From an uncultured Pelagibacteraceae bacterium (GTDB taxonomy: Bacteria > Pseudomonadota > Alphaproteobacteria > Pelagibacterales > Pelagibacteraceae), in assembly GCA_902614975.1 (NCBI GenBank), contig CACMND010000003.1:1-64000 (forward strand): DNA of 64,000 nucleotides, in the 5' to 3' direction. The notes below the pieces were generated by a model. That model was not told the DNA's origin and ran no database searches. It saw only the letters and a list, made by a program, of their open reading frames with translations. Below, piece after piece: positions 12,042-38,545 of the stretch; position 1 is the first letter of the stretch; each line of letters starts with the position of its first letter. The translations under genes and the position numbers were made by a program.

Positions 12042-13376
12042 ATGACTAAAGTCGCTATTATCGGTGCTGGACCTTGTGGGTTATCAATACTCAGGGCTTT
12101 TGAACATGCCGAGAAAAAAGGAGACAAAATACCTGAAATAGTTTGCTTCGAAAAACAAAGTGATTGGGGAGGTCTTTGGAATTATAGCTGGAGAACGGGA
12201 TCTGACCAATATGGAGATCCAGTTCATAATAGTATGTATAGATATCTTTGGTCAAATGGACCTAAAGAGTGTCTTGAATTCGCAGATTATTCTTTTGATG
12301 AACATTTTGGAAAGCCAATTCCTTCTTTCCCACCTAGAGAAGTACTTTATGATTATATCACTAGTAGAGTAAGTAAGGGAAATTTAAGAAAAAAAATTAA
12401 ATTTAATACAAGAGTAGTTAATACAGTTTTTAAATCAGACAAATTTGAAGTTAGCTATCAAGATAAAGAAAATGATAAAATTTTAACTGATCATTTTGAT
12501 TACGTTGTAGTGTCCACTGGTCATTTTTCAGTTCCTTTTATACCTGAATATAAAGGTATGAGTTCATTTCCTGGAAGAATAATGCACTCACATGATTTTA
12601 GAGATGCAGAAGAATTTAGAGGAAAAAATATTATAGTTTTAGGAAGCAGTTATTCCGCTGAGGATATTGCGCTTCAATGCAATAAATATGGAGCAAAAAG
12701 TGTAACAATTGGCTACAGGCATAATCCTATGGGTTTTAAATGGCCTGAAGGAATGAAGGAAGTATTCTATTTAGATAGATTAGAGGGAAAAAAAGCAATT
12801 TTTAAAGATGGCACGGAACAGGATGCAGATGTAATAATACTATGTACTGGTTACCTACATCATTTTCCTTTCTTGGAAGAAAATTTAAAACTTAAAACAA
12901 GAAACAGACTTTATCCTCCAAAATTATACAAAGGTGTTGTTTGGCAGGATAATCACAAACTTTTGTATCTAGGAATGCAAGATCAGTTTCATACATTCAA
13001 TATGTTTGATTGCCAAGCTTGGTACGCAAGAGATGTTATAATGGGGAAAATAAATATGCCAAATGGAGGGGATATTGAAAAAGATATTAATAAATGGGTT
13101 GCTTTAGAAGAAAAACTAGAAAATCCTGATCAGATGATTGATTTTCAGACTGAATACACAAAAGAATTACATGAGATGTCGGATTATCCAAAAATAGATT
13201 TTGAATTAATCAGAAAACATTTTAAAGAATGGGAACATCATAAGGTTGAAGATATATCAACGTATAGAAATAAATCTTTTTCATCTCCAGTTACAGGGTC
13301 AGTAGCTCCTGTTCATCATACAGCTTGGGCAAAAGCAATGGACGATTCTTCTGAAACATTTCTAAATAAAAACTAA
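12042..13376 (+). CDS. tmm: Trimethylamine monooxygenase (flavin-containing)
   Basis: This 444-residue flavin-containing monooxygenase closely resembles bacterial Tmm. The FAD-binding GAGPCG is at 8-13. The FMO fingerprint FxGxxxHxxxF is met by F176, G178, H182 and F186. A second nucleotide-binding GSSYSA is at 201-206. Bacterial Tmm oxidises trimethylamine to TMAO with NADPH and O2, and can also act on other methylated amines and sulfides. It is preceded by a GAGGAAAA ribosome site and stands alone on the plus strand. TMAO use is encoded some 12 kb downstream (tmo and tdm). Confidence 0.92.
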   Translation: MTKVAIIGAGPCGLSILRAFEHAEKKGDKIPEIVCFEKQSDWGGLWNYSWRTGSDQYGDPVHNSMYRYLWSNGPKECLEFADYSFDEHFGKPIPSFPPREVLYDYITSRVSKGNLRKKIKFNTRVVNTVFKSDKFEVSYQDKENDKILTDHFDYVVVSTGHFSVPFIPEYKGMSSFPGRIMHSHDFRDAEEFRGKNIIVLGSSYSAEDIALQCNKYGAKSVTIGYRHNPMGFKWPEGMKEVFYLDRLEGKKAIFKDGTEQDADVIILCTGYLHHFPFLEENLKLKTRNRLYPPKLYKGVVWQDNHKLLYLGMQDQFHTFNMFDCQAWYARDVIMGKINMPNGGDIEKDINKWVALEEKLENPDQMIDFQTEYTKELHEMSDYPKIDFELIRKHFKEWEHHKVEDISTYRNKSFSSPVTGSVAPVHHTAWAKAMDDSSETFLNKN

Positions 13377-13385
13377 AAATTTAAA

Positions 13386-14645
13386 CTAATTTTCTAAAAC
13401 TAAGTCTAAATATAAAGCTGCGCTCCATGAGAAATTATTTGCGCCCATAACTGATCCATCTTTATAACTGTAATATTCATGAAAACCTTTTTCTTCAATT
13501 AATTCTAAAGTTTTCTTTTTGATTTCATTTGCATATTCTGGCTCTTTTTTAACAAGTCCTTGATAAATTAACCAATTACAATTTATCCATATTGGACCTC
13601 TCCAATATCTTTTTTCCTCAAATGTAGGATGATTTGGTTTTATTGTTGAGAAATAGTAATCGTCATTAATATTATGATTTTTTAAATTCTTAACAATTTT
13701 TTTATTTAATTCATCATCTTGTAAATTTGCGTAGAGAGTAAAATAATTTGTTATCGATGGTACAACAATATTCAAGTTAGTTTTTAAATCTTTTGAGACA
13801 AAATCATTAATATTATTATCATATAATTTTAATATTTCTTTTTCAGTTTTGGATACGAAATTATTTAAATCATCAAAATTTAAATCAAAATTTTTAGCTA
13901 AGCTAAGCAGATCTTTATTTGCTTTCAAAAATAAAGCATTAAATCCAACATCTACTACATTAAAATTAGAGATCTCAAACAATTTATGTGGATCATACTG
14001 AACATCCCTAAATTGATCTCTTAAAGTCACATATCTGTCATAATCAGTTTTTAAAGGTCTCTCATCAGAGTTTGAAACTTCAAGATCTCTTCTTTTATAA
14101 TTAAGGTTTTTGTCTACTTTGATATTGCTCATTGGCTGATCCCAAATTGGTGAATTATCATACCCGCTCTCCCACGGATGTAATATGGATACAAGGCCGG
14201 TTTTATTAGGATCTCTGAATTTTATGAACCAATCATGATAATTTTTAATTTTTGTTATTATATTTACAATTCTTGAACGTTGTTCATTACTAAGTTGATT
14301 TTTTTCAATAATTTTCCTCAAAATACTTGCTAAAACTGGTGGCTGAGTAATGCCAGATGAAGGAATATTTTTTCCACATTGCCAAGTTGTGTGATTTGGA
14401 AAATAAGATGTGTCTTTTTCATGAAAAAGAATGTGGGGTACCATACCATCGTCCCACTGACCATTTAGCAAAGTTTCAATTTCTGTAATTGAAAAATCTA
14501 GATTAAAGTATGAATAACCAAGTGCTATAAAAGCAGAATCCCAATTCCATTGAGCAGGATATAATTTGTTATTAGTAGGAAGTGTGTAACCATCTTTTCT
14601 GTTAACTAATAATATTTTTTTTGCCTCTTCTACTCTATTTTGCAT
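13386..14645 (-). CDS. GH63-like glycoside hydrolase (mannosyl-/glucosylglycerate hydrolase type)
   Basis: The 419-residue protein has an (alpha/alpha)6-barrel GH63/trehalase-like sequence: W-N-W-D-S-A-F near 34-39, G-Q-W-D-D-G-M-V-P-H near 63-71, H-P-W-E-S-G-Y-D-N-S-P near 156-166, Y-W-R-G-P-I-W-I-N near 349-357 and a C-terminal N-N-F-S-W-S-A-A. These are shared with bacterial mannosylglycerate/glucosylglycerate hydrolases, with the Asp and Glu of W-D-S/W-E-S as plausible catalytic acids. There is no signal peptide, so it works in the cytoplasm. It sits as the last gene of an ABC importer operon, sharing one base with the permease before it, and probably cleaves the imported glycoside. Confidence 0.75.
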   Translation of the reverse strand: MQNRVEEAKKILLVNRKDGYTLPTNNKLYPAQWNWDSAFIALGYSYFNLDFSITEIETLLNGQWDDGMVPHILFHEKDTSYFPNHTTWQCGKNIPSSGITQPPVLASILRKIIEKNQLSNEQRSRIVNIITKIKNYHDWFIKFRDPNKTGLVSILHPWESGYDNSPIWDQPMSNIKVDKNLNYKRRDLEVSNSDERPLKTDYDRYVTLRDQFRDVQYDPHKLFEISNFNVVDVGFNALFLKANKDLLSLAKNFDLNFDDLNNFVSKTEKEILKLYDNNINDFVSKDLKTNLNIVVPSITNYFTLYANLQDDELNKKIVKNLKNHNINDDYYFSTIKPNHPTFEEKRYWRGPIWINCNWLIYQGLVKKEPEYANEIKKKTLELIEEKGFHEYYSYKDGSVMGANNFSWSAALYLDLVLEN

Positions 14646-15838
14646 TATCCTTTAACACTTCCTGCAGTAAGACCACTTACTAAATATTTTTCAAAATAAA
14701 CAAAAATAATTAAAATAGGCAAAGTTACTACAACAGACCCTGCCATCAAATATTGTCTAGGTGTTTCAGCTCCAACATTTAGAAACTGAATAGCTCTTGA
14801 TAATGTGAACGTATTTGGGCGGTCTAAAAACATTAATGAAAATAAAAATTCATTCCAAGCTATCATAAATACATACAAAGCTACTGATGATATAGCAGGT
14901 AAACTTAGCGGAAGTATAATTTTAAAAATTATACCAAGCCAATTTTGACCATCTATTATCCCTGCTTCTTCTAATTCTTTTGGTATACTTTTAAAGTAAC
15001 CTTGCAACATATAAATAGCTACAGGTAAAGTAGTAGCTGTATAAACTATTAACAAACCCTCAATAGAATTTCTTAAACCAAGTTGACTAAAAATTGTATA
15101 CAAAGGTATCACTAAAACTATCGCTGGAAACAAATAAATTATCAATATGGATGTTGATAAAAAATTTTTTCCAAAGAAATTAAGTCTTGCAACCGCGTAA
15201 GCAGCTGGTATTGCAAATATTAATGTTATAATGACTGTGCCTAAGGAGACTATTGTGCTAGTTAGCATATATCTTCCAAAATTATAATCTTTGAACACTA
15301 TAAAATAAGATTTGAACAACTCTGGCAATCCTTGTGCAAAGTTAATACTAAAGTCTAATGGGTTCAATAATAACAATGCTTGGGTTTTAAAGCTTGTAAC
15401 TAACATCATATAAAAAGGGAAAAGAATTACAAAAGAGAATAGAGTAATTCCAAATAATGTTAAAAAATTAAAGAATAATTTTTGAGAAGAATGATTTTTT
15501 GACAAAAAGTTTTTGTCGTAGTTTTTTATAGTATTAAAGAAAAACACTGAGATTAAGAATATGCCAAAACTGTACCAAATAGGTAAATTTTTTGAGATGA
15601 AATAATCAAAGATAGAAAATAAAAGTGCTAGTAAAATTATTTTAATATTTAAATTTAATTTTTTCCCAATAAGAAGATTTATTGCACAAAGAATTATTCC
15701 AAATATAAATAATTTATTAAAATTAAAATTTGTTAATTCAATTCCTTGTAATGTAACTAAGATTTTCCAAATACAAATTAATGAAAACAAAAACAAAGAC
15801 GAGATAAAGCAATAATTAAGTATATTTTTAATTTTCAT
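14645..15838 (-). CDS. CUT1 ABC importer permease (MalG-like) with extra N-terminal membrane domain
   Basis: The C-terminal 275 or so residues form a MalG-type permease: six membrane segments and the ATPase-coupling EAA loop E-E-A-G-I-I-D-G-Q-N-W-L-G-I-I-F-K-I-I-L-P near 290-310. The usual family length is about 280 residues, but this protein has 397. The first 110 or so residues add about four hydrophobic segments ending before K-N-Y-D-K-N-F-L-S. It overlaps the MalF-like gene by 11 bp and the hydrolase gene by 1 bp. It imports the substrate of the upstream binding protein. Confidence 0.85.
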   Translation of the reverse strand: MKIKNILNYCFISSLFLFSLICIWKILVTLQGIELTNFNFNKLFIFGIILCAINLLIGKKLNLNIKIILLALLFSIFDYFISKNLPIWYSFGIFLISVFFFNTIKNYDKNFLSKNHSSQKLFFNFLTLFGITLFSFVILFPFYMMLVTSFKTQALLLLNPLDFSINFAQGLPELFKSYFIVFKDYNFGRYMLTSTIVSLGTVIITLIFAIPAAYAVARLNFFGKNFLSTSILIIYLFPAIVLVIPLYTIFSQLGLRNSIEGLLIVYTATTLPVAIYMLQGYFKSIPKELEEAGIIDGQNWLGIIFKIILPLSLPAISSVALYVFMIAWNEFLFSLMFLDRPNTFTLSRAIQFLNVGAETPRQYLMAGSVVVTLPILIIFVYFEKYLVSGLTAGSVKG

Positions 15839-17087
15839 CAGCTCTTTTTCCTAAAAGTTTAAAATAGATAAACATGAAAATTAATAGAAACACTACAATC
15901 ACAATAGAAACTGCAGAACCCATACCAATATCCCCGATTGAAAAACCTTGTTGATATACATTTATTGGCAATGTTCTTGTACCTGATGCCCCGCCAGTGA
16001 GTAAGAAGATGTCTTCAAATTTATTAAAATTCCAAATAAATCTAATCATAAATAAAATTGAAATCACTGCTAATATCTGGGGGAAAGTAATATTAAGAAA
16101 TTTTTGGATAGGATTTGCACCATCAACATCAGCTGCTTCATACAACTCTTTTGGAACTGCTTGAAGACGAGCAAGAATAAATAAAAATGCTAGAGGAAAA
16201 TATCTCCAAATTTCAAAAATAATTACAGTTGTTAATGCTAGCCTCAATTTAAAATCAAAACCAAGTATGTTTAAAGTTACATATTTTTGTCCTAATAAAT
16301 TTATTGGTCCATCAATAATTTGATAGTTAATTAATAAATTATTCAAAGTTCCGCTTGTTGGATCAAGTAAAAGTTCCCACGTATAAGCAAGAGCAACAAC
16401 TGGCGCAACATAAGGAAATAAAAGAACACTTCTCATAAATGTTCTTCCAAAAAATTTTTGATTTACCATTTGTGCAGCTAAAATTCCAAAAACTATTGCA
16501 CCTATGGTTCCAAAAAAAGTGTAATAAAAAGTTGTTGATAATAGATCTATAAAAGCTTTGTCTTTAATTACTTTTTTGAAATTATTTAATGTAAATTCAT
16601 AAGTTAATAATATATTTTGTGACTTACCTGATAGTTTAGGCTTATAAGATTTTAGTTCCTTCTTGGAAATTTCTTGATTATTAATATTTTGAAATACTAT
16701 TTCTAAATTTTCTCGATATTTTTTTGGCCAATTACCTAACTCACACTTAAGTAAATTTGATTTAAATTGACATTTATTATTTAAACTTATTGGTTCGATA
16801 TCATCTGGATATTTATCTTTAAATTTTACATTAGTAATTTCTTGAGTAAGAGAACTATTTCTTAATTTATAAATTACTTTTATTTGATTTGGATTATCAT
16901 TAATTGATTTTACTAATTTTTTTGCTCTTGGTTCAGGAATTCTTAAATCTTTGAGCTCTACATTTTTAAAACTTATCCAAATATTAGAAAATATTGGAAA
17001 TAAAATTATAGAAAATACTAAAAGAACTGATGGTAATATTAAAAGATAAGCTGTTCTTTTTTCAATTTTTGCAAGTTTTGAACTCAT
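15828..17087 (-). CDS. CUT1 ABC importer permease (MalF-like) with large periplasmic insert
   Basis: A MalF-type permease of 419 residues, longer than the usual 290-320. TM1 is about 13-35. A soluble insert of about 130 residues (40-175) follows, before the permease core with EAA loop Y-E-A-A-D-V-D-G-A-N near 315-324. The insert reads like an Ig-like/DUF11-type beta domain, with a V-I-Y-K-L-R-N-S strand, D-K-Y-P-D-D-I, then Cys106 and Cys115 near C-E-L-G-N-W. The start codon at 17087 abuts the U-tract of the terminator-like hairpin at 17088-17124, and there is no separate Shine-Dalgarno. Confidence 0.85.
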   Translation of the reverse strand: MSSKLAKIEKRTAYLLILPSVLLVFSIILFPIFSNIWISFKNVELKDLRIPEPRAKKLVKSINDNPNQIKVIYKLRNSSLTQEITNVKFKDKYPDDIEPISLNNKCQFKSNLLKCELGNWPKKYRENLEIVFQNINNQEISKKELKSYKPKLSGKSQNILLTYEFTLNNFKKVIKDKAFIDLLSTTFYYTFFGTIGAIVFGILAAQMVNQKFFGRTFMRSVLLFPYVAPVVALAYTWELLLDPTSGTLNNLLINYQIIDGPINLLGQKYVTLNILGFDFKLRLALTTVIIFEIWRYFPLAFLFILARLQAVPKELYEAADVDGANPIQKFLNITFPQILAVISILFMIRFIWNFNKFEDIFLLTGGASGTRTLPINVYQQGFSIGDIGMGSAVSIVIVVFLLIFMFIYFKLLGKRADEN

Positions 17088-17124
17088 AAAAAAAAGCGGA
17101 TAATTAATATTACCCGCTTTTTTT
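17088..17124 (-). terminator. Intra-operon terminator-like hairpin after the sugar SBP gene
   Basis: On the minus strand an A-rich arm plus GCGG (complement of 17114-17124) pairs with CCGC plus U7 (complement of 17089-17099). The loop region adds an inner TAAT/ATTA stem, so it is a strong hairpin with a U-tract. Because both arms carry A/T runs it could also act in the other direction. It lies directly between the SBP stop (17139) and the MalF-like start codon (17087). Confidence 0.8.
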
Positions 17125-17138
17125 AATTTTTTAAATTA

Positions 17139-18467
17139 CTAGAAGCTAGCTAGTACAGTATTAATTTCATCTACTGCTTCATCTAACGTCAATTGATCGT
17201 CAATATATTGTCTAGTGATTCTATTTATAAACTTATTGTTAATAATTTTAGATGCTCTAGATAGTTCACCTTCTTTAACACCCCATCTATTAGCAGTATC
17301 TAAACCTGCAACAATATTATTTATTACATCTGCTGAATATAGATCTGTTAAAGGAGCTTTTCTATCAACTCCAACAGGCAGTTTACTCCAAGCTGTTGTA
17401 AATGCATTTGGATCACTTGCATTACCTCTTCTTACAGGGAACTTACCTTCTGGTGCTATAGATAAAGTGCTTGTATATCCTTCATCCATTGAATAAAGAA
17501 TAAACTGCTTAGCTTCATCTGTATCTGCATCTGCAGTTACACCAAAGTATCTAACATCTGCCCAAGCTGCGCCTTTTACATTATTTGGTCCACTAAAATT
17601 AGTTATAAAACCAGTTTTAGATGCCAATTCTGGTGATGTAGGATCACTGTTAATTGTTGGTGGAGCTGAGTCTCTTAAACCAGCTAATTCATCCATGATA
17701 AATGGTGACCATATTATCATAGGAGTTTTACCAGCGAAATAAAGTTCTCTTGATTGTTTCCAATAAAGTTCTCCTGGAGGGCTAGCCTTAGCTAATTTTT
17801 TATAAAACTGTAAAGAATTCTTTAAAGCTCTTCCTTGTTTTTTTGTTCCACCTTTTTTTACAATATTTACACCATTTGCAAGCATGACATGTTCTAAAAC
17901 TTGACTCATAAAGTTTTCGTCAGTTTTAGTTGCCGCAACAAATCCAAACATATCATTACTAGATAAAGCATCTATTGCTTTCTCGATGTTTGCATAAGTC
18001 GTCGGTGGTTCTAAACCAGCAGCTTTAAATAAATCTTTTCTGTATACAACCATTTGCGTCCAGCCATCTACTGGCACGGCTGCAATTTTGCCACCTTTTT
18101 TAGCCATCTTTAGAGCACCTGGAGCAAAAGTTTTCTTTCCAAGTGAGTTAACGATATCATTATTTGCATCAACGTCTAAAATTCCCGCTTCTGCCCATGG
18201 CAATACATATTGCAATGTATGATAAATTACATCAGGAAGATCTCCTGCTGCTGCTGCTGCAGTAGCTCTTGTTCCTAAATCTTTTTCATCAATCGGGATA
18301 ACTTCAACTCCAATTCCAGTTTTGGCTTCAAAAGCTTTTGCCATCTCTTCTTGTTTAGCCATCCTTGCTGGTTGAGTTTCTGTCGTCCAGAATTTGATAT
18401 CTGCAAATGCAATTGAATTAAAAACAAAAGCTATTGCAGAGATTGTTATTAATATATTTTTAAACAT
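17139..18467 (-). CDS. ABC sugar/osmolyte-binding protein (SBP family 1)
   Basis: This 442-residue protein has a signal peptide (first about 22 residues, ending S-I-A-F-A) and an extracellular solute-binding family 1 sequence: D-I-K-F-W-T-T-E, G-I-G-V-E-V-I-P, A-G-D-L-P-D-V-I-Y and W-T-Q-M-V-V-Y-R-K-D-L-F-K-A-A-G-L, as in MalE/UgpB/GgtB-type proteins. The ligand is not readable, but the operon's cytosolic GH63-type hydrolase suggests a small glycoside such as glucosylglycerol or glucosyl-/mannosylglycerate. It has its own candidate promoter and is followed by a terminator-like hairpin. Confidence 0.88.
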   Translation of the reverse strand: MFKNILITISAIAFVFNSIAFADIKFWTTETQPARMAKQEEMAKAFEAKTGIGVEVIPIDEKDLGTRATAAAAAGDLPDVIYHTLQYVLPWAEAGILDVDANNDIVNSLGKKTFAPGALKMAKKGGKIAAVPVDGWTQMVVYRKDLFKAAGLEPPTTYANIEKAIDALSSNDMFGFVAATKTDENFMSQVLEHVMLANGVNIVKKGGTKKQGRALKNSLQFYKKLAKASPPGELYWKQSRELYFAGKTPMIIWSPFIMDELAGLRDSAPPTINSDPTSPELASKTGFITNFSGPNNVKGAAWADVRYFGVTADADTDEAKQFILYSMDEGYTSTLSIAPEGKFPVRRGNASDPNAFTTAWSKLPVGVDRKAPLTDLYSADVINNIVAGLDTANRWGVKEGELSRASKIINNKFINRITRQYIDDQLTLDEAVDEINTVLASF

Positions 18468-18516
18468 ATATTCCCCTCTTTTTTCTTGTTTTCTAAAGTT
18501 ATTTAAAAATTAACAC

Positions 18517-18545
18517 ATAATGAACATTTAAAAGAAGAATAACAA
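18517..18545 (-). promoter_or_regulatory. Candidate sigma70 promoter for the sugar SBP gene
   Basis: On the minus strand TTGTTA (18540-18545) and CATTAT (18517-18522) are spaced by exactly 17 bp, placing initiation about 40 bp before the SBP start at 18467. The gap after the ATPase gene (112 bp) is the only one in this operon large enough to hold a promoter. It would let the binding protein be expressed apart from the upstream genes. Confidence 0.45.
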
Positions 18546-18579
18546 GTATGTAATTTAAACAATTCTACCTGAGATTGAT

Positions 18580-19665
18580 TCAAGAATTTTTAAAAGAAAT
18601 ACCTTTATTATCAAATAAATGGCAACGAAATGGATCAAAACCTATTTTAACAGTGTCACCTACTTTAATATTTGTGTCTCCATCAGTTTGTACAACAAGA
18701 GGATCTCCCTCTTTCTCTAAATATAAATATGTTCCTGACCCTAATTTTTCTACAACGAAGACTTTACTTTCCCATAATGAATCTGTTTTTGCATTTAATA
18801 TCAAATGCTCTGGTCTTATTCCAATTTTTATACTATCCCCTTCTTGAGTATTATCAGAAATTTTTGGTACATTTAACTTTCCAGTCCCCATTATATCTAC
18901 TTCAGAACTCTTTGAACTTTTACTTAAAATTTTACTATCTATAAAATTCATTTTTGGAGATCCGATAAAACCACCAACAAACAGATTATCTGGGTTATTA
19001 TATAAGTTCATGGGTGATCCCTTTTGTGAAACTATACCTTGATCCAATACAACAATATCATTTGCAAGTGTCATGGCTTCAGTTTGATCATGAGTTACGT
19101 AAATCATTGTTGCATTAAGTTGATCATGTAATTTTGCCAATTCTACTCTCATTTGTACTCTTAATGCTGCATCTAGATTAGATAATGGTTCATCGAATAA
19201 AAAAACTTTTGGTTTTCTTGTAATGGCTCTACCAATAGCTACTCTTTGACGTTGTCCTCCAGATAATTGTTTGGGTTTTCTCTCAAGATACTCTTCTATC
19301 TGTAAAATTTTAGCAGCTTCCATTACTCTTTGCTCTATCTCTTCTTTTGATTTTTTTTCAATTTTTAAACCAAAAGCCATATTATCAAATACAGTCATAT
19401 GAGGATAAAGAGCATAAGATTGAAATACCATTGCAATATTTCTTTCTTTAGGTGGTAGATCATTTACAACTTTATCATCAATAGATATTGTACCTGAATT
19501 AATTTCCTCTAAACCAGCAATCATTCTTAAGATTGTTGATTTACCACATCCGCTTGGGCCTACTAGAACTGTGAAGGACTCACTTTTTATATCAAGAGAA
19601 ACATCTTTGATCACATGTGTGCTACCAAAAAACTTGTTTACTTTATCTATTTTAATACTTGCCAT
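18580..19665 (-). CDS. ABC importer ATPase, MalK/UgpC type
   Basis: The 361-residue ATPase has Walker A G-P-S-G-C-G-K-S-T (about 36-44), the Q-loop V-F-Q-S-Y-A-L-Y-P-H, the signature L-S-G-G-Q-R-Q-R-V (about 134), Walker B V-F-L-F-D-E-P-L-S-N-L-D and the H-loop Thr-His-Asp. A C-terminal TOBE/OB domain (about 240-361) with G-I-R-P-E-H is typical of CUT1 ATPases. It energises the MalF/MalG-like pair downstream. It starts 2 bp after the GpsA-like gene. Confidence 0.93.
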   Translation of the reverse strand: MASIKIDKVNKFFGSTHVIKDVSLDIKSESFTVLVGPSGCGKSTILRMIAGLEEINSGTISIDDKVVNDLPPKERNIAMVFQSYALYPHMTVFDNMAFGLKIEKKSKEEIEQRVMEAAKILQIEEYLERKPKQLSGGQRQRVAIGRAITRKPKVFLFDEPLSNLDAALRVQMRVELAKLHDQLNATMIYVTHDQTEAMTLANDIVVLDQGIVSQKGSPMNLYNNPDNLFVGGFIGSPKMNFIDSKILSKSSKSSEVDIMGTGKLNVPKISDNTQEGDSIKIGIRPEHLILNAKTDSLWESKVFVVEKLGSGTYLYLEKEGDPLVVQTDGDTNIKVGDTVKIGFDPFRCHLFDNKGISFKNS

Positions 19666-19667
19666 TT

Positions 19668-20627: not shown

Positions 20628-20633
20628 TTAAGA

Positions 20634-28323: not shown

Positions 28324-28673
28324 TGTCAAAATCATCAAAGGATTTACTGGAATTTTGGGAAGATCAAATGAAACTATCCCATACATCTAGTAATTACTTT
28401 TTCAGAAAGTCTCCTTCACATTATCACATGATGTTGATAGTGATGAATTCCTATAAATTAAATGAAAACTTATCTGTCGAAGAACTTAAGACTAGACTTT
28501 TCAAAACCTCTAGACCCAAATCTGCTCTCATGATCAAAGAAGCTTGTGATAAAGAATTTTTTTACCTCGAAAAAACGGGAAATGACCATAGAAAAAAGTA
28601 CGTTTTACCCACACAGAATTTTGTAAATGAATTTAACGAATATTTGAAAACTCTGAAAAATTTGAGTTTTTAA
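28323..28673 (+). CDS. Small putative winged-helix protein downstream of tdm
   Basis: This 116-residue soluble protein has no clear family assignment. The region 50-105 reads like a MarR-type winged helix: helices S-V-E-E-L-K-T-R-L-F and S-A-L-M-I-K-E-A-C-D, then F-F-Y-L-E-K-T-G-N-D-H-R-K-K-Y-V-L-P-T, resembling the wing with its conserved D-x-R and a final strand before a C-terminal helix. It starts inside the tdm stop (TAATG), so it is made with Tdm. It could regulate the cluster, or be an accessory protein. Confidence 0.65.
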   Translation: MSKSSKDLLEFWEDQMKLSHTSSNYFFRKSPSHYHMMLIVMNSYKLNENLSVEELKTRLFKTSRPKSALMIKEACDKEFFYLEKTGNDHRKKYVLPTQNFVNEFNEYLKTLKNLSF

Positions 28674-30092: not shown

Positions 30093-30159
30093 TTTATCTA
30101 AGTAGACAAACGTTTTTTTTTCAGTTACCTTTTTGATCTGAAAATTCAAAGGGGGAAGA

Positions 30160-31629: not shown

Positions 31630-31646
31630 TTTAATAAGGAAATTAT

Positions 31647-32588
31647 ATGTGCGGAATAGCAGGATTAATTCATAGAGGAAATACATCAAATGTAGGTTTT
31701 GAACTCCAAGGAATGCTTCAAGCATTAAAGCATAGGGGTGAGGACTCAACTGGATATGCTTTGTATGGAAAAACTGATGGAGAAAATTTCATCATGCGAT
31801 TTAAGGTTGGTGAAAATGTTGCAGAGGGAAGCTCTTCAGTAAAAGAAGATGTATCAGTTTATGATGAAAGAAAAAAAATTGTTGATTCTTATCTTTCTGA
31901 GCTAGGTGCTAAGGTGATAAAAGAAGATAGAATTCTTCCTTATTCATTACGATATGAAATTCAGTATGACAAAGATTTAATGGAATTTTCTCAAAAAATA
32001 GAAAGTGTTGAAGGGGTAGAAATATTATCTATGGGAAAATCTCTAGAAGTAATTAAAGATCTAGGAAACGCTGAAGTTGTTTGTAACAGATATAATTTAG
32101 ATAAAGTTGTTGGGACACATGCAATTGGTCATGCTAGAATGGCAACAGAGTCGGGAGTGGATATTAAATCTGCTCACCCATTTTGGGGTTATCCTTTTAG
32201 CGATGTGTCAGTTGTTCATAATGGACAATTAACAAACTATTGGAATAATAGAAGAGTATTGGAAAACAAAGGCATGAGATTTATGTCAGAATGTGACTCG
32301 GAATTAATCGCTGTATATCTTGCAGAAAAAATGAGAAATGGAGCTACATTAGAAGAGGGAATGAAAGAGTCTCTCGTCGGTTTAGATGGGGTATTTACTT
32401 ATTTTGTTGCTACAAAAGATAGCTTAGGGATGGCGAAAGATACAATGGCTGCAAAACCACTAGTATTGTATGAGTCAGATGATTTAGTTGCAATGGGGTC
32501 AGAGGAAATTGCAATAAGATCAATATTACCACAAGAAATCGAAACTTATGATCCTTTTGATGGAGAAGTTAAAGTATGGCAAATTTAA
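31647..32588 (+). CDS. mgsA: N-methylglutamate synthase / glutamate synthase-like amidotransferase subunit
   Basis: The 313-residue class II glutamine amidotransferase starts M-C-G-I-A-G, so Cys2 is the N-terminal nucleophile. L-K-H-R-G-E-D-S, the H-A-R-M-A-T-E-S block and V-H-N-G-Q-L-T-N-Y complete the GATase II site. It is a stand-alone subunit, as in MgsA/GlxB, rather than part of a large GltB. It follows the GS-like gene by 17 bp with an AAGGAAAT ribosome site and overlaps the next gene by 13 bp. The three-subunit enzyme moves methylamine, or ammonia, from a gamma-glutamyl amide to a keto acid. Confidence 0.85.
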   Translation: MCGIAGLIHRGNTSNVGFELQGMLQALKHRGEDSTGYALYGKTDGENFIMRFKVGENVAEGSSSVKEDVSVYDERKKIVDSYLSELGAKVIKEDRILPYSLRYEIQYDKDLMEFSQKIESVEGVEILSMGKSLEVIKDLGNAEVVCNRYNLDKVVGTHAIGHARMATESGVDIKSAHPFWGYPFSDVSVVHNGQLTNYWNNRRVLENKGMRFMSECDSELIAVYLAEKMRNGATLEEGMKESLVGLDGVFTYFVATKDSLGMAKDTMAAKPLVLYESDDLVAMGSEEIAIRSILPQEIETYDPFDGEVKVWQI

Positions 32589-33430
32589 AAACATCAGAAA
32601 AAAAAAGTAAAGCTCAATCAATGGGACTTCATACAGAAGTCTTAACTGGAAAAACACAACAAAAATTTTTTAATCCAGATGAGGCTGAGAATTTTTATTA
32701 CTTTGGAACATATGATGTAGATTTTAACAAAAGAACTGAAATTGACGTTAAGAACATGGATTGTCGTGAAGCAAATAAAAAAATTGATGAATTAATGAAA
32801 GATGGATACGGAACTATTGTAATAAAGAACCCACAGGGAAAACATAGCTTAGGAGTTGGAATTCTCAATAAATTAAATTTAATATTTGAAGGAAGTTTGG
32901 GGTACTTTGGGTGTGGATCAATGGATGGTCCTATAGTTAGAATTAATGGAAGAGTGGGATGGTCATGTGCAGAAAATATGATGGCAGGAAAAGTAGTAAT
33001 TGAAAAAAATGCAGGTTCTTGTTTTGGTGCGGCAATTAGAGGTGGAGATCTGATATGCAAAGGAAGCGTAGGTGCAAGAACTGGTATTGATCAAAAAGGT
33101 GGAACAATAATTATTGGCGGAGATGCTGGTGCTTTTACAGGTTTTATGATGCAGAGAGGGCGAATTATTATTCTTGGAGATGTTGGAATAAATTTAGGAG
33201 ATTCTATGTATGATGGGACAATTTTTGTAGGTGGAAAAATTGGATCATTTGGTAGTGATGCTGTCGAAGCTGAATTAACTGATTCAGATCAAGACTGGCT
33301 TAAAAGAAAATTAAAGGTTGCGGAGATCGGAGAAAACTTCGATGTTTCTAAGATGACCAAAGTTGTAGCAGGAAAAAAACTTTGGAATTACGATGCTCTT
33401 GAACCTACAGAAAAAAAAGGAGCAATTTAA
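32576..33430 (+). CDS. mgsB: N-methylglutamate synthase-like subunit, GXGXG (GltB domain 3) type
   Basis: The 284-residue protein is a right-handed beta-helix GXGXG domain: repeats such as G-K-V-V-I-E-K-N-A-G, G-G-T-I-I-I-G-G-D-A-G-A and G-T-I-F-V-G-G-K-I-G-S match the C-terminal domain of glutamate synthase. In single-chain GltB this domain lines the ammonia tunnel, and here it is separate, as in MgsB/GlxC. It overlaps mgsA by 13 bp and abuts mgsC. It has no catalytic residues of its own. Confidence 0.87.
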   Translation: MANLKTSEKKSKAQSMGLHTEVLTGKTQQKFFNPDEAENFYYFGTYDVDFNKRTEIDVKNMDCREANKKIDELMKDGYGTIVIKNPQGKHSLGVGILNKLNLIFEGSLGYFGCGSMDGPIVRINGRVGWSCAENMMAGKVVIEKNAGSCFGAAIRGGDLICKGSVGARTGIDQKGGTIIIGGDAGAFTGFMMQRGRIIILGDVGINLGDSMYDGTIFVGGKIGSFGSDAVEAELTDSDQDWLKRKLKVAEIGENFDVSKMTKVVAGKKLWNYDALEPTEKKGAI

Positions 33431-34822
33431 ATGGCAAAGAAAAAAAATGGTAATGGAAAGTCAAAAGGACATTCTAATGGTAATGGAATAGCTTCAAGAA
33501 ACAAAAGTTTGTTGGGACACAACGCTATTTTTACTCCAGAGGTTATGGACGACATTCATATCAAAGCGGAATTAGGAAGATACAGAATGAGAGGAATGGC
33601 TTTGATGAAAAAGATACCTACTTTTGATGATCTAGTTTTCTTGCCAGGTACATTAACAAGATTTGTTATTGAAGGTTACAGAGAAAAATGTGAGACCAAA
33701 ACTATTATTGGTCCAAGATGTGAAAATCCAATTGAGCTTGATATTCCAGTTTACATTACGGGAATGAGTTTTGGAGCTTTATCTTATGAAGCAAAAACTG
33801 CATTAGCTAGAGGTGCTACAATGGCTGGTAGCGCAACATGTTCTGGTGAAGGTGGAATGATACCAGATGAGAGAAGATATTCAGAAAAATGGTTTTATCA
33901 GTGCATACAATCAAGATACGGTTTTAACCCACACCATGCACAACTAGCTGATGGAATTGAGGTATTTATTGGACAAGGACAAAAAGTTGGAATGGGTGGT
34001 CATTTGATGGGTCAAAAAGTTACTGACCAAGTTGCAGAAATGAGATCGCTACCTGCAGGTATTGATCAAAGATCTCCAGCAAGACATCCTGATTGGCTGG
34101 GTCCAGATGATTTAGCTTTAAAAGTTCAAGAGCTTAGAGAATTAACAAAAAACAAAGTGCCAATTCAATTAAAACTTGGAGCAGCTAAAGTGTATGATGA
34201 TGTAAGGATGGCAGCAAAATGTGATCCAGATTCAATTTATCTTGATGGAATGGAAGGTTCAACAGGTGCTGGACCACACATTGCAGCTGCAAACACAGGT
34301 ATCCCAGGAATTGCTGGAATTAGAGAAGCAAGAAGAGCTTTGGATGATGTAGGTAAAACCGGAAAGGTAACTTTAATTTATGCAGGTGGTGTTAGAGATG
34401 GAGCAGATATGGCTAAAGCCTTAGCACTTGGAGCAGACGCAATTGCAATAGGAACGGGTGCAATGGTGGCTTTGAATTGCAATAAAGAAATACCAGAGTC
34501 TAACTTTGAAAAAGAAATGGGTGTACCCGCAGGTCATTGCTATCACTGTCACACGGGTAGATGTCCAGTAGGAGTTGCTACTCAAGATCCTAAATTAAGA
34601 AAAAGATTAAATCCTGATGACGCAGCATTAAGAGTGTATAATTACTTGCATGCTATGACATTGGAGGCTCAATTGTTGGCTAGAGCATGTGGAAAAACAA
34701 ATATTCACTCGCTAGAACCAGAAGATATGGCTGCATTAACAATGGAGGCGTCTGCTTTAGCTAAAGTGCCTCTTGCAGGAACAAATCATACAGTAGGAGT
34801 TAAAGATTTCCATAAAATCTAA
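33431..34822 (+). CDS. mgsC: N-methylglutamate synthase-like FMN/Fe-S subunit
   Basis: The 463-residue protein is a glutamate synthase FMN-binding (GltB domain 2) subunit. A G-M-S-F-G-A-L-S motif lies near 111-118, G-M-E-G-S-T-G-A-G-P near 273-282 and Y-A-G-G-V-R-D-G-A-D near 317-326. The 3Fe-4S-type cluster is likely bound by Cys370, Cys373 and Cys378 in C-Y-H-C-H-T-G-R-C. The low-complexity N-terminus (first about 20 residues, Lys/Gly/Asn-rich) is unusual. MgsC makes N-methylglutamate when methylamine is delivered; GlxD or ammonia-using variants look alike. Confidence 0.88.
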   Translation: MAKKKNGNGKSKGHSNGNGIASRNKSLLGHNAIFTPEVMDDIHIKAELGRYRMRGMALMKKIPTFDDLVFLPGTLTRFVIEGYREKCETKTIIGPRCENPIELDIPVYITGMSFGALSYEAKTALARGATMAGSATCSGEGGMIPDERRYSEKWFYQCIQSRYGFNPHHAQLADGIEVFIGQGQKVGMGGHLMGQKVTDQVAEMRSLPAGIDQRSPARHPDWLGPDDLALKVQELRELTKNKVPIQLKLGAAKVYDDVRMAAKCDPDSIYLDGMEGSTGAGPHIAAANTGIPGIAGIREARRALDDVGKTGKVTLIYAGGVRDGADMAKALALGADAIAIGTGAMVALNCNKEIPESNFEKEMGVPAGHCYHCHTGRCPVGVATQDPKLRKRLNPDDAALRVYNYLHAMTLEAQLLARACGKTNIHSLEPEDMAALTMEASALAKVPLAGTNHTVGVKDFHKI

Positions 34823-34830
34823 TAGCAAAT

Positions 34831-35241
34831 ATGCCAAAGAAAAAAGGTAAGAAAAAAGTCAAATCAAAAGAGATCAAAGGTCAATTAGGTAAGAAAAAAG
34901 AGACTGCTAGAGAAAAAATGATTGGCCAAACAATTGGCTATCGATATGACGTTAATCTTTTGCCTGACTATAGTCGACTCACTCCATTTTTAAAAAAATA
35001 TATAGAAGCTATGGGTTGGGATGATCTTAATTGGTTAGAAGATGTTCATATGGGATATGAAGAAAATAGACCTGCTGTATTCGATAGAAATGCTAACGGT
35101 TGGGTAACGATACCAAGTAAAATAAAATTACCTAATAATCAGCAGGATAGAGATATGATAGCTAGAGAATTATTGGTAAAGTTTCAAATGTCCCCGAATC
35201 ATCCTCTGGTTGACCTTAAAAAAGCATATTTAAAATTCTAA
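34831..35241 (+). CDS. Conserved unknown basic protein in the mgs-amt operon
   Basis: I do not recognise this 136-residue soluble protein. The first 40 residues are very Lys-rich (basic tail), followed by a compact domain with Y-R-Y-D-V-N-L-L-P-D-Y-S-R-L-T-P and W-D-D-L-N-W-L-E-D-V-H. It follows mgsC by 8 bp and precedes amt, so it is probably an accessory of the methylamine/ammonium genes. No known catalytic motif is visible. Confidence 0.7.
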   Translation: MPKKKGKKKVKSKEIKGQLGKKKETAREKMIGQTIGYRYDVNLLPDYSRLTPFLKKYIEAMGWDDLNWLEDVHMGYEENRPAVFDRNANGWVTIPSKIKLPNNQQDRDMIARELLVKFQMSPNHPLVDLKKAYLKF

Positions 35242-35329
35242 TTTCAATTTCAAGTTGATAAAATAATTATTAACTTCTACTTTTTATAAATAAAATAAAA
35301 TTGTCAGCGTAAAAAAAATTTCATAGAGT

Positions 35330-35350
35330 CTATTAACTATTAATAGGAGA
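35330..35350 (+). promoter_or_regulatory. Hairpin over the amt ribosome-binding site
   Basis: CTATTAA (35330-35336) and TTAATAG (35340-35346) are perfect inverted arms separated by CTA, and the second arm touches the AGGAGAG Shine-Dalgarno (35345-35351) of amt. The arms are A+T rich and the fold is weak, so this is only a candidate translation control element. A possible promoter (TTGATA-17-TACTTT, 35255-35283) lies upstream but is poor. Confidence 0.35.
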
Positions 35351-35357
35351 GAGAAAT

Positions 35358-36758
35358 ATGACTGATCAATTAGGTGCTCTCACAACCTTATTTACAGAAT
35401 TTTACTATTGGGTAACTGTGGTTCTTATGTTTTTGATCCACGTGGGATTCTGTATGTATGAAGTTGGGGCATCTCGTTACAAACATCACCAACACACTCT
35501 TATGAAAAATACAATGCTGATACCACTGGTAACAGTCACATGGTTTTTCTTTGGTTGGTGGATATACTGGGCATTTCCAACTGGACCCGGATTAGCTCCT
35601 TCGATTATGACCGAAAGTACTGGTCTAGTTCTTGGAGGTGGATTTGGTGGAAATGATCTTGCTAATCCTACAAATGCATTGATGGCCGTAAATCTTAATG
35701 ATCATATAATGGGTGTCTTCTGGGCAGCCTTTTTATTATTTTCATGGACTGCAGCTTCAATTGTATCTGGAGCGGTTATTGAAAGGATAACTACTTTTGC
35801 ATTTGGAATACTTGCAATTGCAATTGGATCTGTTTTCTGGACAATAGATGCTTCATGGGGATGGCATTTTGATGGATGGATGTTAAAAATATTAGGATAT
35901 CACGATGCTTATGCTTCCGGAGTAATTCACGCAATTGCCGGAGGTTTTGCCTTAGGTGTTCTAATTGTTTTAGGACCAAGAATTGGAAAATTTTCATCTA
36001 GCGGAGAACCAAGAAACATTGGACCAAGAAATCCTTGGTTAGTGACTGTTGGATTATTCTTAATCTATACAGGTTTTTGGGGCTTTTACGCTGCATGTAA
36101 TGTTCCGATTTATGATCTTGGACCTGAATATGGTATGGAAGGTGTAACTTTCTTTACTGCAACGAACATCTACCTAACTCCCACCACACTTAGTGGAATA
36201 ACGATGAACTTTTTAATGTCGTTATCTGGAGGGTTGTTAGCAGGGTATGTGGTCTCGAAAGGAGATCCTTTCTGGACTTATTCATCAGGACTTGCGGGAA
36301 TAATATGTGCATCTGCAGGTAATGATTTATATCATCCAATACAATCAATGATAATCGGTATGATCGGAGTAGTTATAGCTTACAAAATGCATTACTGGGT
36401 CGAGAAAAAATATAAAATCGACGATGCAGTTGGAGCAGTAGCTGTTCATGGTTATGCTGGATTTGTTGGTCTTGTGATATGTGGTTTCGTTTTAAATGGT
36501 TATCCTTCATCTGGATACAGTGTTGGAGCTATGTGGGATGGAACTAATTATGCAGCAATTAATCCTCTTGGAATGTTTATCGGTGCAATAATAATGTTTT
36601 TTGTACTAGGTATGCTTCCTGGATATATAATTGCAAAAGTTCTTCACGGAATGGGTAAATTAAGAATACCAAGAGAAGTAGAACTTGCAGGACTTGACTA
36701 TACAATTATGGAAGAGGCTAAAGAAGACGAAAAAGCTGTAGTCTCGGCCAGTAGATAA
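35358..36758 (+). CDS. amt: Ammonium/methylammonium transporter (Amt family)
   Basis: A 466-residue Amt channel with about 11 membrane helices. Family signatures such as the D-A-S-W-G-W-H-F-D-G-W region near 165-175, the G-V-I-H-A-I-A-G-G segment near 187-195 and A-V-H-G-Y-A-G near 364-370 are present, with the conserved twin-His pore residues in the two His-bearing segments. An ATG with AGGAGAG start is clear. Linkage to the GS/mgs genes means methylammonium import is likely as well as ammonium. Confidence 0.93.
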   Translation: MTDQLGALTTLFTEFYYWVTVVLMFLIHVGFCMYEVGASRYKHHQHTLMKNTMLIPLVTVTWFFFGWWIYWAFPTGPGLAPSIMTESTGLVLGGGFGGNDLANPTNALMAVNLNDHIMGVFWAAFLLFSWTAASIVSGAVIERITTFAFGILAIAIGSVFWTIDASWGWHFDGWMLKILGYHDAYASGVIHAIAGGFALGVLIVLGPRIGKFSSSGEPRNIGPRNPWLVTVGLFLIYTGFWGFYAACNVPIYDLGPEYGMEGVTFFTATNIYLTPTTLSGITMNFLMSLSGGLLAGYVVSKGDPFWTYSSGLAGIICASAGNDLYHPIQSMIIGMIGVVIAYKMHYWVEKKYKIDDAVGAVAVHGYAGFVGLVICGFVLNGYPSSGYSVGAMWDGTNYAAINPLGMFIGAIIMFFVLGMLPGYIIAKVLHGMGKLRIPREVELAGLDYTIMEEAKEDEKAVVSASR

Positions 36759-36771
36759 AGGAGGTATGTAA

Positions 36772-36993
36772 ATGGCAACAGTATCAAATTGGATAGATCA
36801 TTTAAGTGCCTCTGAGGTACAAGGATCTGTCTATCCAGGTGTTGGTTCGGAAGGAGTGCTAGTTATAATAGCAATTCTTATTTGGGTTGGCTGGCATATT
36901 ATTTCATCTAAACAAGAAGATGGTAAGATGAATGCAATTGTCAGAAAAAAACCAAGTGCTAACGACTGGAAAAGCAATATAACAGACGGTTAA
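36772..36993 (+). CDS. Small single-TM protein downstream of amt
   Basis: The 73-residue protein has one hydrophobic segment (about 28-45), flanked by Ser/Gly-rich and then Lys-rich ends. It starts 13 bp after amt with a strong AGGAGG (36759-36765) and ends just before a Rho-independent terminator, so it belongs to the amt unit. I know of no named family. A small channel-associated subunit is a guess. Confidence 0.75.
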   Translation: MATVSNWIDHLSASEVQGSVYPGVGSEGVLVIIAILIWVGWHIISSKQEDGKMNAIVRKKPSANDWKSNITDG

Positions 36994-37000
36994 AACTTTT

Positions 37001-37036
37001 AAGAGGGCGCATGAAATACTGTGCCCTCTTTTTTTT
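37001..37036 (+). terminator. Rho-independent terminator after amt unit
   Basis: AAGAGGGC (37001-37008) and GCCCTCTT (37023-37030) are perfect inverted arms around a 14-base loop, extended by a C-G and a G-T pair, and followed by T at 37031-37036. It closes the amt-small protein unit but is followed 2 bp later by the next gene, so it probably reduces rather than blocks downstream expression. Confidence 0.9.
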
Positions 37037-37037
37037 A

Positions 37038-37202
37038 ATGCAAAATTCTGAAGAAAATAATCAAAATAAAAATAAAACTCCTAGCAAAATGGCACGTCTT
37101 GCATGGCCAAAAGCAAAGTATGGAGTAATTATAGCGATATTAATTATTATTGGTGTAAATTTAATTTATTACAAAGATTTCTTTTTATCATTTTTTAAAT
37201 AA
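37038..37202 (+). CDS. Small single-TM protein before the GS-like gene
   Basis: A 54-residue protein, M-Q-N-S-E-E-N then a Lys/Asn-rich stretch and one membrane segment (about 30-47, G-V-I-I-A-I-L-I-I-I-G-V-N-L). The open frame extends to 37011, but that ATG lies in the terminator loop, so the ATG at 37038 is the likely start. No Shine-Dalgarno. It precedes the GS-like gene by 17 bp. Function unknown. Confidence 0.55.
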   Translation: MQNSEENNQNKNKTPSKMARLAWPKAKYGVIIAILIIIGVNLIYYKDFFLSFFK

Positions 37203-37219
37203 TTGTGTTACGTTATTAG

Positions 37220-38545
37220 ATGGCAAAAAATTTATTTAAAATTTCAAAACAAAAAAAAATTAAATATTTTTTGATAAGTTTTGTAGATTTATTTGGTGTC
37301 TTAAGATCAAAATTGGTTCCTGCTCATGCAATAAAAGATATGCAAGTAGATGGTGCTGGATTTGCTGGATTTGCAGCCTGGCTAGATATGACACCAGCTG
37401 ATTCTGATATGTTTGCAATACCTGATCCTGACAGTTTAATTCAACTACCATGGAATAAAGAAGTTGGTTGGCTAGCTTCAGATTTATGGATGAATGGTAA
37501 ACCAGTCGATGCTTCACCAAGAGTGATGTTAAAAAAACAAATAAAAAAATTATCTGAATTGGGATATAGCATGAAGTCAGGTGTGGAGTGTGAGTATTTT
37601 TTGATTTCTCCTGATGGGAACGCAATTGCAGATAATAGAGATACTCAATCTAAACCTTGTTATGACCAGTCTTCATTAATGAGAAGATATGAGCTTATAA
37701 AAGAAATATGTGATTGTATGATTGAAATGGGATGGGGTCCTTATCAAAATGACCACGAAGATGCTAATGGGCAATTTGAAATGAATTGGGATTATTCAGA
37801 TTGTCTAAAAACTGCTGATAGACACACTTTTTTTAAATTTATGGTTAAAACTATTGCAGAAAAGCATGATTTGAGAGCAACATTTATGCCAAAACCTTTT
37901 GAAAATTTAACTGGTAACGGATGTCATGCACATATTTCTTTATGGAAAGGAAAGAAAAATATCTTTCTTGATAAACATGATAAGCTTGGGCTAAGCAAGA
38001 CAGCTTATAACTTTTTAGGAGGCATTATGAAACATGCTTCATCCTTATCTACTTTTTTTAATCCAACAATAAATAGTTACAGACGAATAAATGCTGCACC
38101 AACAAAATCTGGTGCCACATGGTCTCCGAGCAGTATATCATATACAGGAAATAACCGTACACACATGATAAGGGTTCCTGATCCGGGACGATTTGAATTA
38201 AGACTTATGGATGGATCCGCAAATCCTTATTTACTTCAAGCTAGTGTATTAGCTGCAGGAATAGAGGGATTAAGTAAAAGAATTAATCCTGGCAAACCTC
38301 TTTTTTGTAATATGTATGAGGATTATAAAAAATATCCAAACCTTTCTAAATTACCAAATGAACTAAAAGATTCTCTTGATAAAATTGAAAATAATAAAGA
38401 AATGAATAAAGCATTTGGAAAAGAAGTAATTAAAAGTTATGTCAAGTTAAGGACTTCGGAATTAAAAGATTTTAATGATAACGAAAAATTTGATAAGTCC
38501 AAACCAATTACAAAATGGGAAAGACAGAATACTCTAGACTGTTAA
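37220..38545 (+). CDS. gmaS: Type III glutamine synthetase-like, candidate gamma-glutamylmethylamide synthetase
   Basis: The 441-residue protein matches the roughly 435-445 residue type III GS group that includes GmaS and GlnT: I-K-Y-F-L-I-S-F-V-D-L-F-G near 14-26, K-L-V-P-A-H-A-I-K-D-M near 31-41, N-D-H-E-D-A-N-G-Q-F-E-M-N near 173-185, G-N-G-C-H-A-H-I-S-L near 233-242 and R-F-E-L-R-L-M-D-G near 318-326. GmaS makes gamma-glutamylmethylamide from glutamate, methylamine and ATP. The operon context (mgsABC, amt) favours methylamine. Ordinary type III GS activity cannot be excluded by sequence alone. Confidence 0.7.
   Translation: MAKNLFKISKQKKIKYFLISFVDLFGVLRSKLVPAHAIKDMQVDGAGFAGFAAWLDMTPADSDMFAIPDPDSLIQLPWNKEVGWLASDLWMNGKPVDASPRVMLKKQIKKLSELGYSMKSGVECEYFLISPDGNAIADNRDTQSKPCYDQSSLMRRYELIKEICDCMIEMGWGPYQNDHEDANGQFEMNWDYSDCLKTADRHTFFKFMVKTIAEKHDLRATFMPKPFENLTGNGCHAHISLWKGKKNIFLDKHDKLGLSKTAYNFLGGIMKHASSLSTFFNPTINSYRRINAAPTKSGATWSPSSISYTGNNRTHMIRVPDPGRFELRLMDGSANPYLLQASVLAAGIEGLSKRINPGKPLFCNMYEDYKKYPNLSKLPNELKDSLDKIENNKEMNKAFGKEVIKSYVKLRTSELKDFNDNEKFDKSKPITKWERQNTLDC

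Follow-up and report, generated by a model that had tools for sequence, protein, structure and literature searches.

Four described systems come closest to the genes treated here, one of which, sarcosine oxidase/dimethylglycine oxidase, is related by the fold of a single enzyme. The GmaS/MgsABC/MgdABCD pathway combines an amine ligase of the glutamine synthetase (GS) fold with glutamine amidotransferase (GATase), GXGXG and glutamate-synthase-type subunits and with a demethylase of the sarcosine oxidase type. Dimethylamine monooxygenase (DmmDABC), studied in Ruegeria pomeroyi in 2026 (PMC13390433), has its place after trimethylamine N-oxide (TMAO) demethylase (Tdm). Third, there is the gene cluster SAR11_1303-1316 of the SAR11 strain HTCC1062 (PMC3160333, PMC8918994), for which Sun et al. 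(2011; PMC3160333) list an aminomethyltransferase (1303), a 'monomeric sarcosine oxidase' (1304), glxBCD (1313-1315) as a putative N-methylglutamate synthase and glnT (1316). In that work, glxBCD is the top match of the N-methylglutamate synthase from M. universalis, and TmoXWV, Tdm, MgsABC and GmaS are listed for SAR11 in PMC8918994. SAR11 bacteria lack dmmDABC, as reported in PMC5520151, where a dimethylamine (DMA) bottleneck is proposed and a general amine oxidase that HTCC1062 expresses under nitrogen limitation is mentioned as an untested candidate. HTCC1062 nevertheless grows with TMAO as the sole nitrogen source in spite of the missing dmmDABC, and an unknown isoenzyme has been suggested (PMC8918994). 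Here, we analyze a stretch of 64,000 nucleotides (positions 1 to 64,000 of contig CACMND010000003.1, in the following called the window) from the 1.20-Mb genome of an uncultured Pelagibacteraceae bacterium (G000, contig 3; 25 contigs, 91% complete), in which six genes downstream of tdm may provide the DMA-converting step.

These six genes (28764-35241, plus strand), termed set A, encode a flavin adenine dinucleotide (FAD)-dependent oxidase, the divergent GS-like protein GSx, the subunits aMgsA, aMgsB and aMgsC, and the conserved protein h136. A related mgsABC set that directly precedes gmaS in some relatives is termed set B. The original prediction described a contiguous gene set leading from trimethylamine (TMA) through TMAO to dimethylamine and methylamine. 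This cluster is real, and it is mostly known, as the TMA-TMAO-GmaS cluster has already been published for SAR11 (PMC3160333, PMC8918994). Neither the gene for the FAD oxidase (28764-30092) nor the GS-like gene at 30160-31629, the second of its kind, was mentioned there, and set A, to which both belong, makes a good candidate for the DMA step that SAR11 had seemed to lack. Its gene content and order, its co-occurrence with Tdm, the exclusion of Dmm and the conserved residues lead us to lean slightly towards set A as a DMA route that substitutes for the absent dmmDABC. Set A would then occupy the same pathway position after Tdm as DmmDABC, judged by genomic context.

Set A was scored by the presence of GSx at 66% identity or more in 385 alphaproteobacterial genomes. 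Beyond G000 and G267, GSx is encoded at 66-76% identity in 36 genomes, which brings the count to 38, 37 of them with aMgsC. Lower identities mark paralogues (53-64%) and ordinary GS (34-37%). G433 and G326 (both below 66%), second copies of 53-62% identity in G223, G225, G321, G349 and G398, and three GS proteins at 34-37% were left out of the count; GSx of G406 is a fragment of 192 amino acids at a contig end, and G253 was scored as positive from GSx only. Tdm is encoded in 27 of the 38 set A-positive versus seven of the 347 set A-negative genomes (Fisher p = 2e-26; 34 of 385 in total), G082 and G395 being counted as Tdm-positive though their Tdm-like proteins fall under the cut-off. At the family level, Tdm is present in 13 of the 19 families with set A and in five others, the total number of families being varied in the test. 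A scan of named genomes, which may overlap with the 385-genome sample, was restricted to the best 80 GSx loci. These stem mainly from Alpha- and Gammaproteobacteria and include one SAR116 genome, one from the SUP05 clade and several Cyanobacteria. For 50 of the 80, the genome was searched, and Tdm was found in 45, with aMgsC present in the stretch around GSx in 46.

The distribution of Dmm is the reverse. The haem subunit of Dmm (here called DmmB) belongs to PF11927, a family with no match in the window genome. Strong matches, a class that excludes three weak ones (G090, G319 and G397), occur in none of the 38 set A-positive genomes, where only the weak matches in G090 (E 5.6e-14) and G397 (E 2.8e-16) appear. 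Among Tdm-positive genomes, strong PF11927 proteins are found in 0/27 with set A versus 5/7 without it (p = 7.5e-5), and genes of the DmmA, DmmB and DmmD types were verified together in four of these seven (G219, G312, G343 and G370; p = 7.5e-4), with reference proteins that were taken from G312, identified by Pfam and given their letters in this analysis. The remaining three are G082, which has a PF11927 protein, G395, which has none, and G319, a draft with tdm on a 7-kb contig and a genus mate of the set A-positive G090 and G397. PF11927 proteins are also encoded in nine of the 50 named GSx-positive genomes, but they are just 21-28% identical to DmmB and the stretches around them contain neither dmmA nor dmmD (in G492 the locus lies at a contig end, so that only one side is visible); the notion that these genomes carry Dmm was therefore rejected. 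Set A has no part homologous to DmmDABC, and verified Dmm and set A never occur together in the genomes searched.

The set A genes form a stable block. A tblastn recount covered 39 alphaproteobacterial loci, the best 80 named loci and 22 regions from SAR11 relatives, that is, genomes assigned to the same genus as the window genome. GSx and aMgsC are both present in 33/39, 59/80 and 14/22 of these, and in every such locus (33/33, 59/59, 14/14) GSx, aMgsA, aMgsB and aMgsC follow one another in a single order on one strand. With such constancy the grouping is not due to chance. h136 accompanies them in 30/33, 52/59 and, for SAR11, 14/14 loci, and the gene for the FAD oxidase is likewise present in all 14 SAR11 loci. 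Neighbors in the 33 and 59 loci of the first two sets include tdm (8 and 16), tmm (6 and 15), amt (10 and 19), fhs (6 and 10) and genes of the soxB type (7 and 8). As a separate observation, tmm lies directly 5' of the GSx gene in the cyanobacterium Kaiparowitsia implicata (L201 8538-11473), with no aMgs genes in the 10-kb flanks.

Three of the set A genes had been taken for MgsABC. In the window, aMgsA (31647-32588), a class II glutamine amidotransferase subunit, aMgsB (32576-33430), a GXGXG subunit, and aMgsC (33431-34822), a glutamate-synthase-type flavin mononucleotide (FMN) subunit with three cluster-type cysteines, all on the plus strand, indeed follow each other in the order GATase, GXGXG, glutamate synthase. 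The genes nonetheless belong to a paralogous set outside the set B clade, for which a role in the use of dimethylamine is the better fit. A search for glutamate synthase domains in 61 genomes revealed that MgsC-type genes come as a pair, spaced by about 5 kb, in some SAR11 members and as a single gene in G000. In the 22 regions from relatives the order is tdm, h116, FAD oxidase gene, GSx, aMgsA, aMgsB, aMgsC, h136, amt, then set B where present, and gmaS. In 19 SAR11 loci, the window among them, amt and gmaS share a contig; set B lies between the two genes in four of these loci, all of which hold both sets, and is absent from the other 15. It was not found anywhere in the 91%-complete window genome. 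In the MgsC tree, of which M. universalis sequences are not part, sets A and B are split with support values of 97/96, and set B forms one group at 100/99; as the bootstrap values had yet to converge and two long sequences of the 'other' class fall inside the set A side, only this split is used. aMgsC is about 51% identical to MgsC from set B. Tree split and gene order together led us to reject 31647-34822 as a canonical MgsABC.

Equating set B with glxBCD (1313-1315) of HTCC1062 rests on gene order. By gene counting, 1305-1310 would correspond to GSx, aMgsABC, h136 and amt, and by numbering alone 1311-1312 would be two short open reading frames and 1313-1315 set B. Since this numbering fits the SAR11 gene order, 31647-34822 is the set A copy and, on this numbering, not the putative N-methylglutamate synthase of Sun et al. 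The window has the same genes as the HTCC1062 cluster where these are listed, but its genome lacks a counterpart of 1313-1315. The three cluster-type cysteines were dismissed as a marker of set A: they are present in 91/91 aMgsC sequences, yet also in 4/16 of MgsC from set B, which accordingly comes in two forms (e.g. L039 15092-16408), with these cysteines and without them (12/16). A third Mgs-like type was also seen, consisting of two adjacent proteins of about 650 and 845 amino acids with divergent glutamate-synthase-like domains (L156 151-4646; L197 381-4866), located at most 10 kb from set A.

By overall identity, GSx (30160-31629, plus strand; 489 amino acids) does not group with characterized GmaS, being about 30% identical to GmaS and to ammonia-using GS alike. 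The amine pocket of GmaS is formed by Lys30', Tyr147, Gln175, Asp177, Glu179, Glu186 and Asn188, and two residues of ammonia-using GS, the flap Glu and Asp50', are absent from GmaS (PMC7948447). In an alignment of six GSx sequences (from the window, L094, L112, the tdm-linked L127, the SUP05-clade L185 and the cyanobacterial L192), all seven pocket residues of RhGmaS are kept in all six, as compared to two of seven in GS from B. subtilis; the flap residue is Trp, a feature shared with GmaS, and Val occupies the Asp50' column. Relative to GmaS, Ile replaces Tyr174 and Asn replaces His237, and four of the six sequences have Phe or Thr in place of Trp189. The kept pocket leads to the prediction that GSx is an amine ligase using a small alkylamine rather than ammonia. 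Among the other set A proteins, aMgsA has retained, in the loci examined, the N-terminal cysteine that characterizes class II amidotransferases. h136 (34831-35241, plus strand; 136 amino acids) is conserved at 62-74% identity over 39 homologues and has no Pfam or NCBIfam match and no informative fold match in the PDB.

The first gene of set A in SAR11 (28764-30092, plus strand; Pfam DAO) encodes an FAD-dependent oxidase with the fold of SoxB, monomeric sarcosine oxidase and dimethylglycine oxidase. The structural model (pLDDT 86) has the sarcosine oxidase beta subunit, monomeric sarcosine oxidase and dimethylglycine oxidase as its nearest folds, but identity to the matched structures is just 14-21% among the matches listed, and with 58-67% identity across 31 homologues the protein forms a tight family of its own. 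Arg56 and Lys398 are invariant and align with the SoxB Arg and Lys. We take the equivalent Arg52 and Lys348 of monomeric sarcosine oxidase to bind the substrate carboxylate; on that assumption the invariant pair favors an N-methyl amino acid as the substrate and disfavors free dimethylamine, which has no carboxylate. This bears on a different division of labor, in which the FAD enzyme oxidizes DMA to methylamine and formaldehyde, and GSx and aMgsABC form a second methylamine route through N-methylglutamate. The adjacency of the FAD gene to tdm and h116 in SAR11, its looser linkage to the rest of set A elsewhere, the general amine oxidase of HTCC1062 (PMC5520151) and the methylamine-type pocket of GSx all fit with such a scheme. 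It leaves unexplained, besides the carboxylate-binding residues, why set A is kept in 11 Tdm-positive genomes in which GmaS and set B are already in place, and we regard it as unlikely.

For set A as a DMA pathway, the substrates, intermediates and order of steps that we infer are as follows. DMA released by Tdm would be linked to the gamma-carboxyl group of glutamate by GSx acting as an ATP-dependent ligase, aMgsA would cleave the amide by means of its N-terminal cysteine, and aMgsB and aMgsC would use the FMN site to pass the amine on to 2-oxoglutarate, yielding N,N-dimethylglutamate. The SoxB-like FAD enzyme could then demethylate N,N-dimethylglutamate to N-methylglutamate, and a soxBDAG complex of the Mgd type could remove the last methyl group as methylene-tetrahydrofolate with regeneration of glutamate. 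Free methylamine would be dispensable as an intermediate. A conversion of DMA to glutamate without free methylamine by set A plus one sox complex is the simplest reading of these genes, although the exact chemistry proposed for set A is doubtful in its details. A second, widespread and oxygenase-free DMA pathway that proceeds via N,N-dimethylglutamate and bypasses free methylamine is likewise a tentative idea. Compared to the GmaS/MgsABC/MgdABCD pathway, whose types of components recur in set A, h136 and, in SAR11 and roughly half of the loci elsewhere, the FAD oxidase are additions, GSx is a distant relative of GmaS, and aMgsC lies across a supported branch from the MgsC of set B.

The methylamine question can be approached through the company that set A keeps. 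The four verified Dmm- and Tdm-positive genomes, which are bound to handle methylamine, all have set B and GmaS and no set A, and set B is absent in 16 of the 27 Tdm- and set A-positive genomes versus none of these four (p = 0.04). Neither GmaS nor set B was found in five Tdm- and set A-positive genomes (G108, G131, G137, G233 and G329), which is suggestive of a methylamine-free route. At least two SoxA-type subunits are encoded in 27/27 Tdm- and set A-positive genomes. If set A were instead an N-methylglutamate synthase route for methylamine only, SAR11 members with Tdm would excrete dimethylamine, in line with the bottleneck proposed in PMC5520151, and aMgs could serve GmaS in the window genome, which has gmaS without set B. 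Growth of HTCC1062 on TMAO as the only source of nitrogen, the retention of both sets in four SAR11 loci and the consistent choice of set B by Dmm-containing genomes speak against this proposal, and we deem it improbable.

Several observations weigh against a DMA pathway formed by set A. Tdm is missing from 11 of the 38 set A-positive genomes, and no aMgsC was seen in the stretch around GSx for 21 of the 80 named loci, of which some are truncated by contig ends and others, e.g. in cyanobacteria, Marinibacterium and Maritimibacter, are not. Outside SAR11, the FAD gene is inconstant (24/33 and 28/59 fetched stretches with GSx and aMgsC, contig ends explaining part), so that GSx and aMgs can be placed in the pathway with more certainty than the FAD oxidase. 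The SAR11 genome G004 has the FAD gene beside set B and no set A in sight, up to a contig end. Completeness is 81-95% in the five draft genomes without GmaS, three of which share a genus. SoxA-type subunits are nearly as frequent without set A, with at least one in 44 of 45 genomes searched, so that two copies indicate no more than the possible presence of an N-methylglutamate dehydrogenase. HTCC1062 grows far more weakly on TMAO than on ammonium (PMC8918994). Finally, we found no precedent in the literature for a GS-fold enzyme that ligates a secondary amine or for an N,N-dimethylglutamate intermediate, and a search with most subscription papers and preprints outside its scope retrieved neither set A as a DMA route nor a bacterial pathway via gamma-glutamyl-dimethylamide or N,N-dimethylglutamate.

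The genomes without Tdm also agree with set A acting on some other small amine, its link to tdm then being ecological, as does the occurrence of a GSx paralogue in other operons on plasmids of Ruegeria and Paracoccus. Given the strength of the Tdm link, the exclusion of Dmm and the conservation of the complete methylamine pocket, we consider this very improbable. In the plasmid operons (L133 6449-15489, L134 6903-13690), the GSx paralogue (52-53% identity) and another glutamine-synthetase-like gene form a tandem, accompanied by glutamine-amidotransferase-type genes, to which Ruegeria adds a P450 and a 2Fe-2S protein; they probably represent a different amine route.

Dimethylamine is a gas tied to marine aerosols, and the bottleneck in surface seawater has been proposed to feed aerosol formation (PMC5520151). 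If set A is indeed a DMA pathway, it would close the dimethylamine gap of SAR11 and replace Dmm in many other Tdm-bearing bacteria, including a SAR116-cluster genome. Counts of dmm genes in ocean metagenomes would then underestimate dimethylamine turnover, GSx would be the marker to count and part of the annotated MgsABC would need a new name. The six-gene operon makes the SAR11 dimethylamine question directly testable.

The steps from TMA through TMAO to DMA are well supported by sequence, Tmm, Tdm, TmoX and GmaS all grouping with characterized families. The gene for trimethylamine monooxygenase, tmm (12042-13376, plus strand), reaches 747.8 bits with NF058570 (NCBIfam trimeth_mono; cut-off 675), and its product scores 948 bits against Tmm of Pelagibacter HTCC7211 (structure 7d4k; PMC8498191). 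On the strength of this very high score, the gene content and the small size, the genome is taken to belong to SAR11. The tdm gene (25984-28323, plus strand) passes the NCBIfam cut-off for TMAO demethylase (NF053776) narrowly (1106.5 versus 1100 bits), and its product matches the TMAO demethylase structure 9q59 with 826 bits. In SAR11, tdm is followed on its 3' side by the gene for h116 (28323-28673, plus strand), a small protein that is conserved in SAR11 relatives and has no Pfam or NCBIfam family match. The TMAO importer is encoded on the minus strand by tmoW (20634-22787), the permease gene, in which two copies are fused and match choline/betaine permease families in two stretches, tmoV (22791-23822; proV family, 345 bits, cut-off 326.6) for the ATPase of the ATP-binding cassette (ABC) transporter, and tmoX (24898-25842) for the binding protein. 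The closest solved structure to TmoX is the betaine/proline-type binding protein 4xz6 (283.6 bits; second-best match 30 bits), presumably the TmoX structure of R. pomeroyi.

The family scores confirm tmm, tmoXVW, tdm, amt, a GmaS-type ligase, soxBDAG and fhs at or near their predicted positions. The gene set is not contiguous, however: sugar-type ABC transporter, glucosylglycerate-hydrolase-like and GpsA-like genes (13386-20627) split tmm from tmoW. Within this insertion, 13386-19665 holds the glucosylglycerate-hydrolase-like gene, which stays below the family cut-off, and the MalEFGK-like transporter, and suggests use of a compatible solute. A location of soxBDAG and fhs within 4 kb upstream of tmm applies to fhs (formate-tetrahydrofolate ligase; 8350-10029, plus strand), at a distance of 2.0 kb, and to the near end of soxB (3.8 kb), but not to the end of soxG, which is 8.9 kb away. 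The soxBDAG-type operon (3131-8228, minus strand) is one of two in the genome, which contains two SoxA copies, and may encode a sarcosine oxidase or N-methylglutamate dehydrogenase; PMC3160333 leaves the assignment of sox copies to either function open. The predicted coverage of most of a route to one-carbon units holds from TMA to DMA and is interrupted thereafter, as neither a dimethylamine monooxygenase (PF11927) nor a set B MgsABC was found. No known RNA element was detected in 8000-42000, where two matches near tmoX and three in 36700-37300 all stayed below gathering scores.

At the distal end, amt (35358-36758, plus strand) encodes an ammonium/methylammonium-type transporter that scores 181 bits with TIGR00836, under the family cut-off of 343. 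The product of gmaS (37220-38545, plus strand), gamma-glutamylmethylamide synthetase, matches RhGmaS (7cql) with 565.6 bits versus 224.6 bits for the best ammonia GS; Asp177, Glu186 and Arg312 are kept and the flap is devoid of Glu. The two genes are separated by 461 bases (36759-37219), the site of set B in some relatives, in which no remnant of set B was detected in the window. This gap contains two short open reading frames (36772-36993, 73 amino acids; 37011-37202, 63 amino acids), each with a membrane-like stretch and separated by a terminator-like hairpin, both features recognized by eye, and its DNA has a counterpart of 61-97% identity in 12 other SAR11 loci. In the near relative G018, set A and amt are 95-100% identical to the window and gmaS just 78%, and set B lies immediately 5' of gmaS (L040 15289-16614); set B and gmaS look as if exchanged as one block. 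In another SAR11 relative, G001 (L045 4261-6582), an N,N-dimethylformamidase-like gene (PF20254) adjoins set B and gmaS and is a possible source of dimethylamine. Directly 3' of gmaS, the window carries a diaminopropionate ammonia-lyase-like gene (38547-39680), which shows 55-98% identity among SAR11 relatives, below most of set A.

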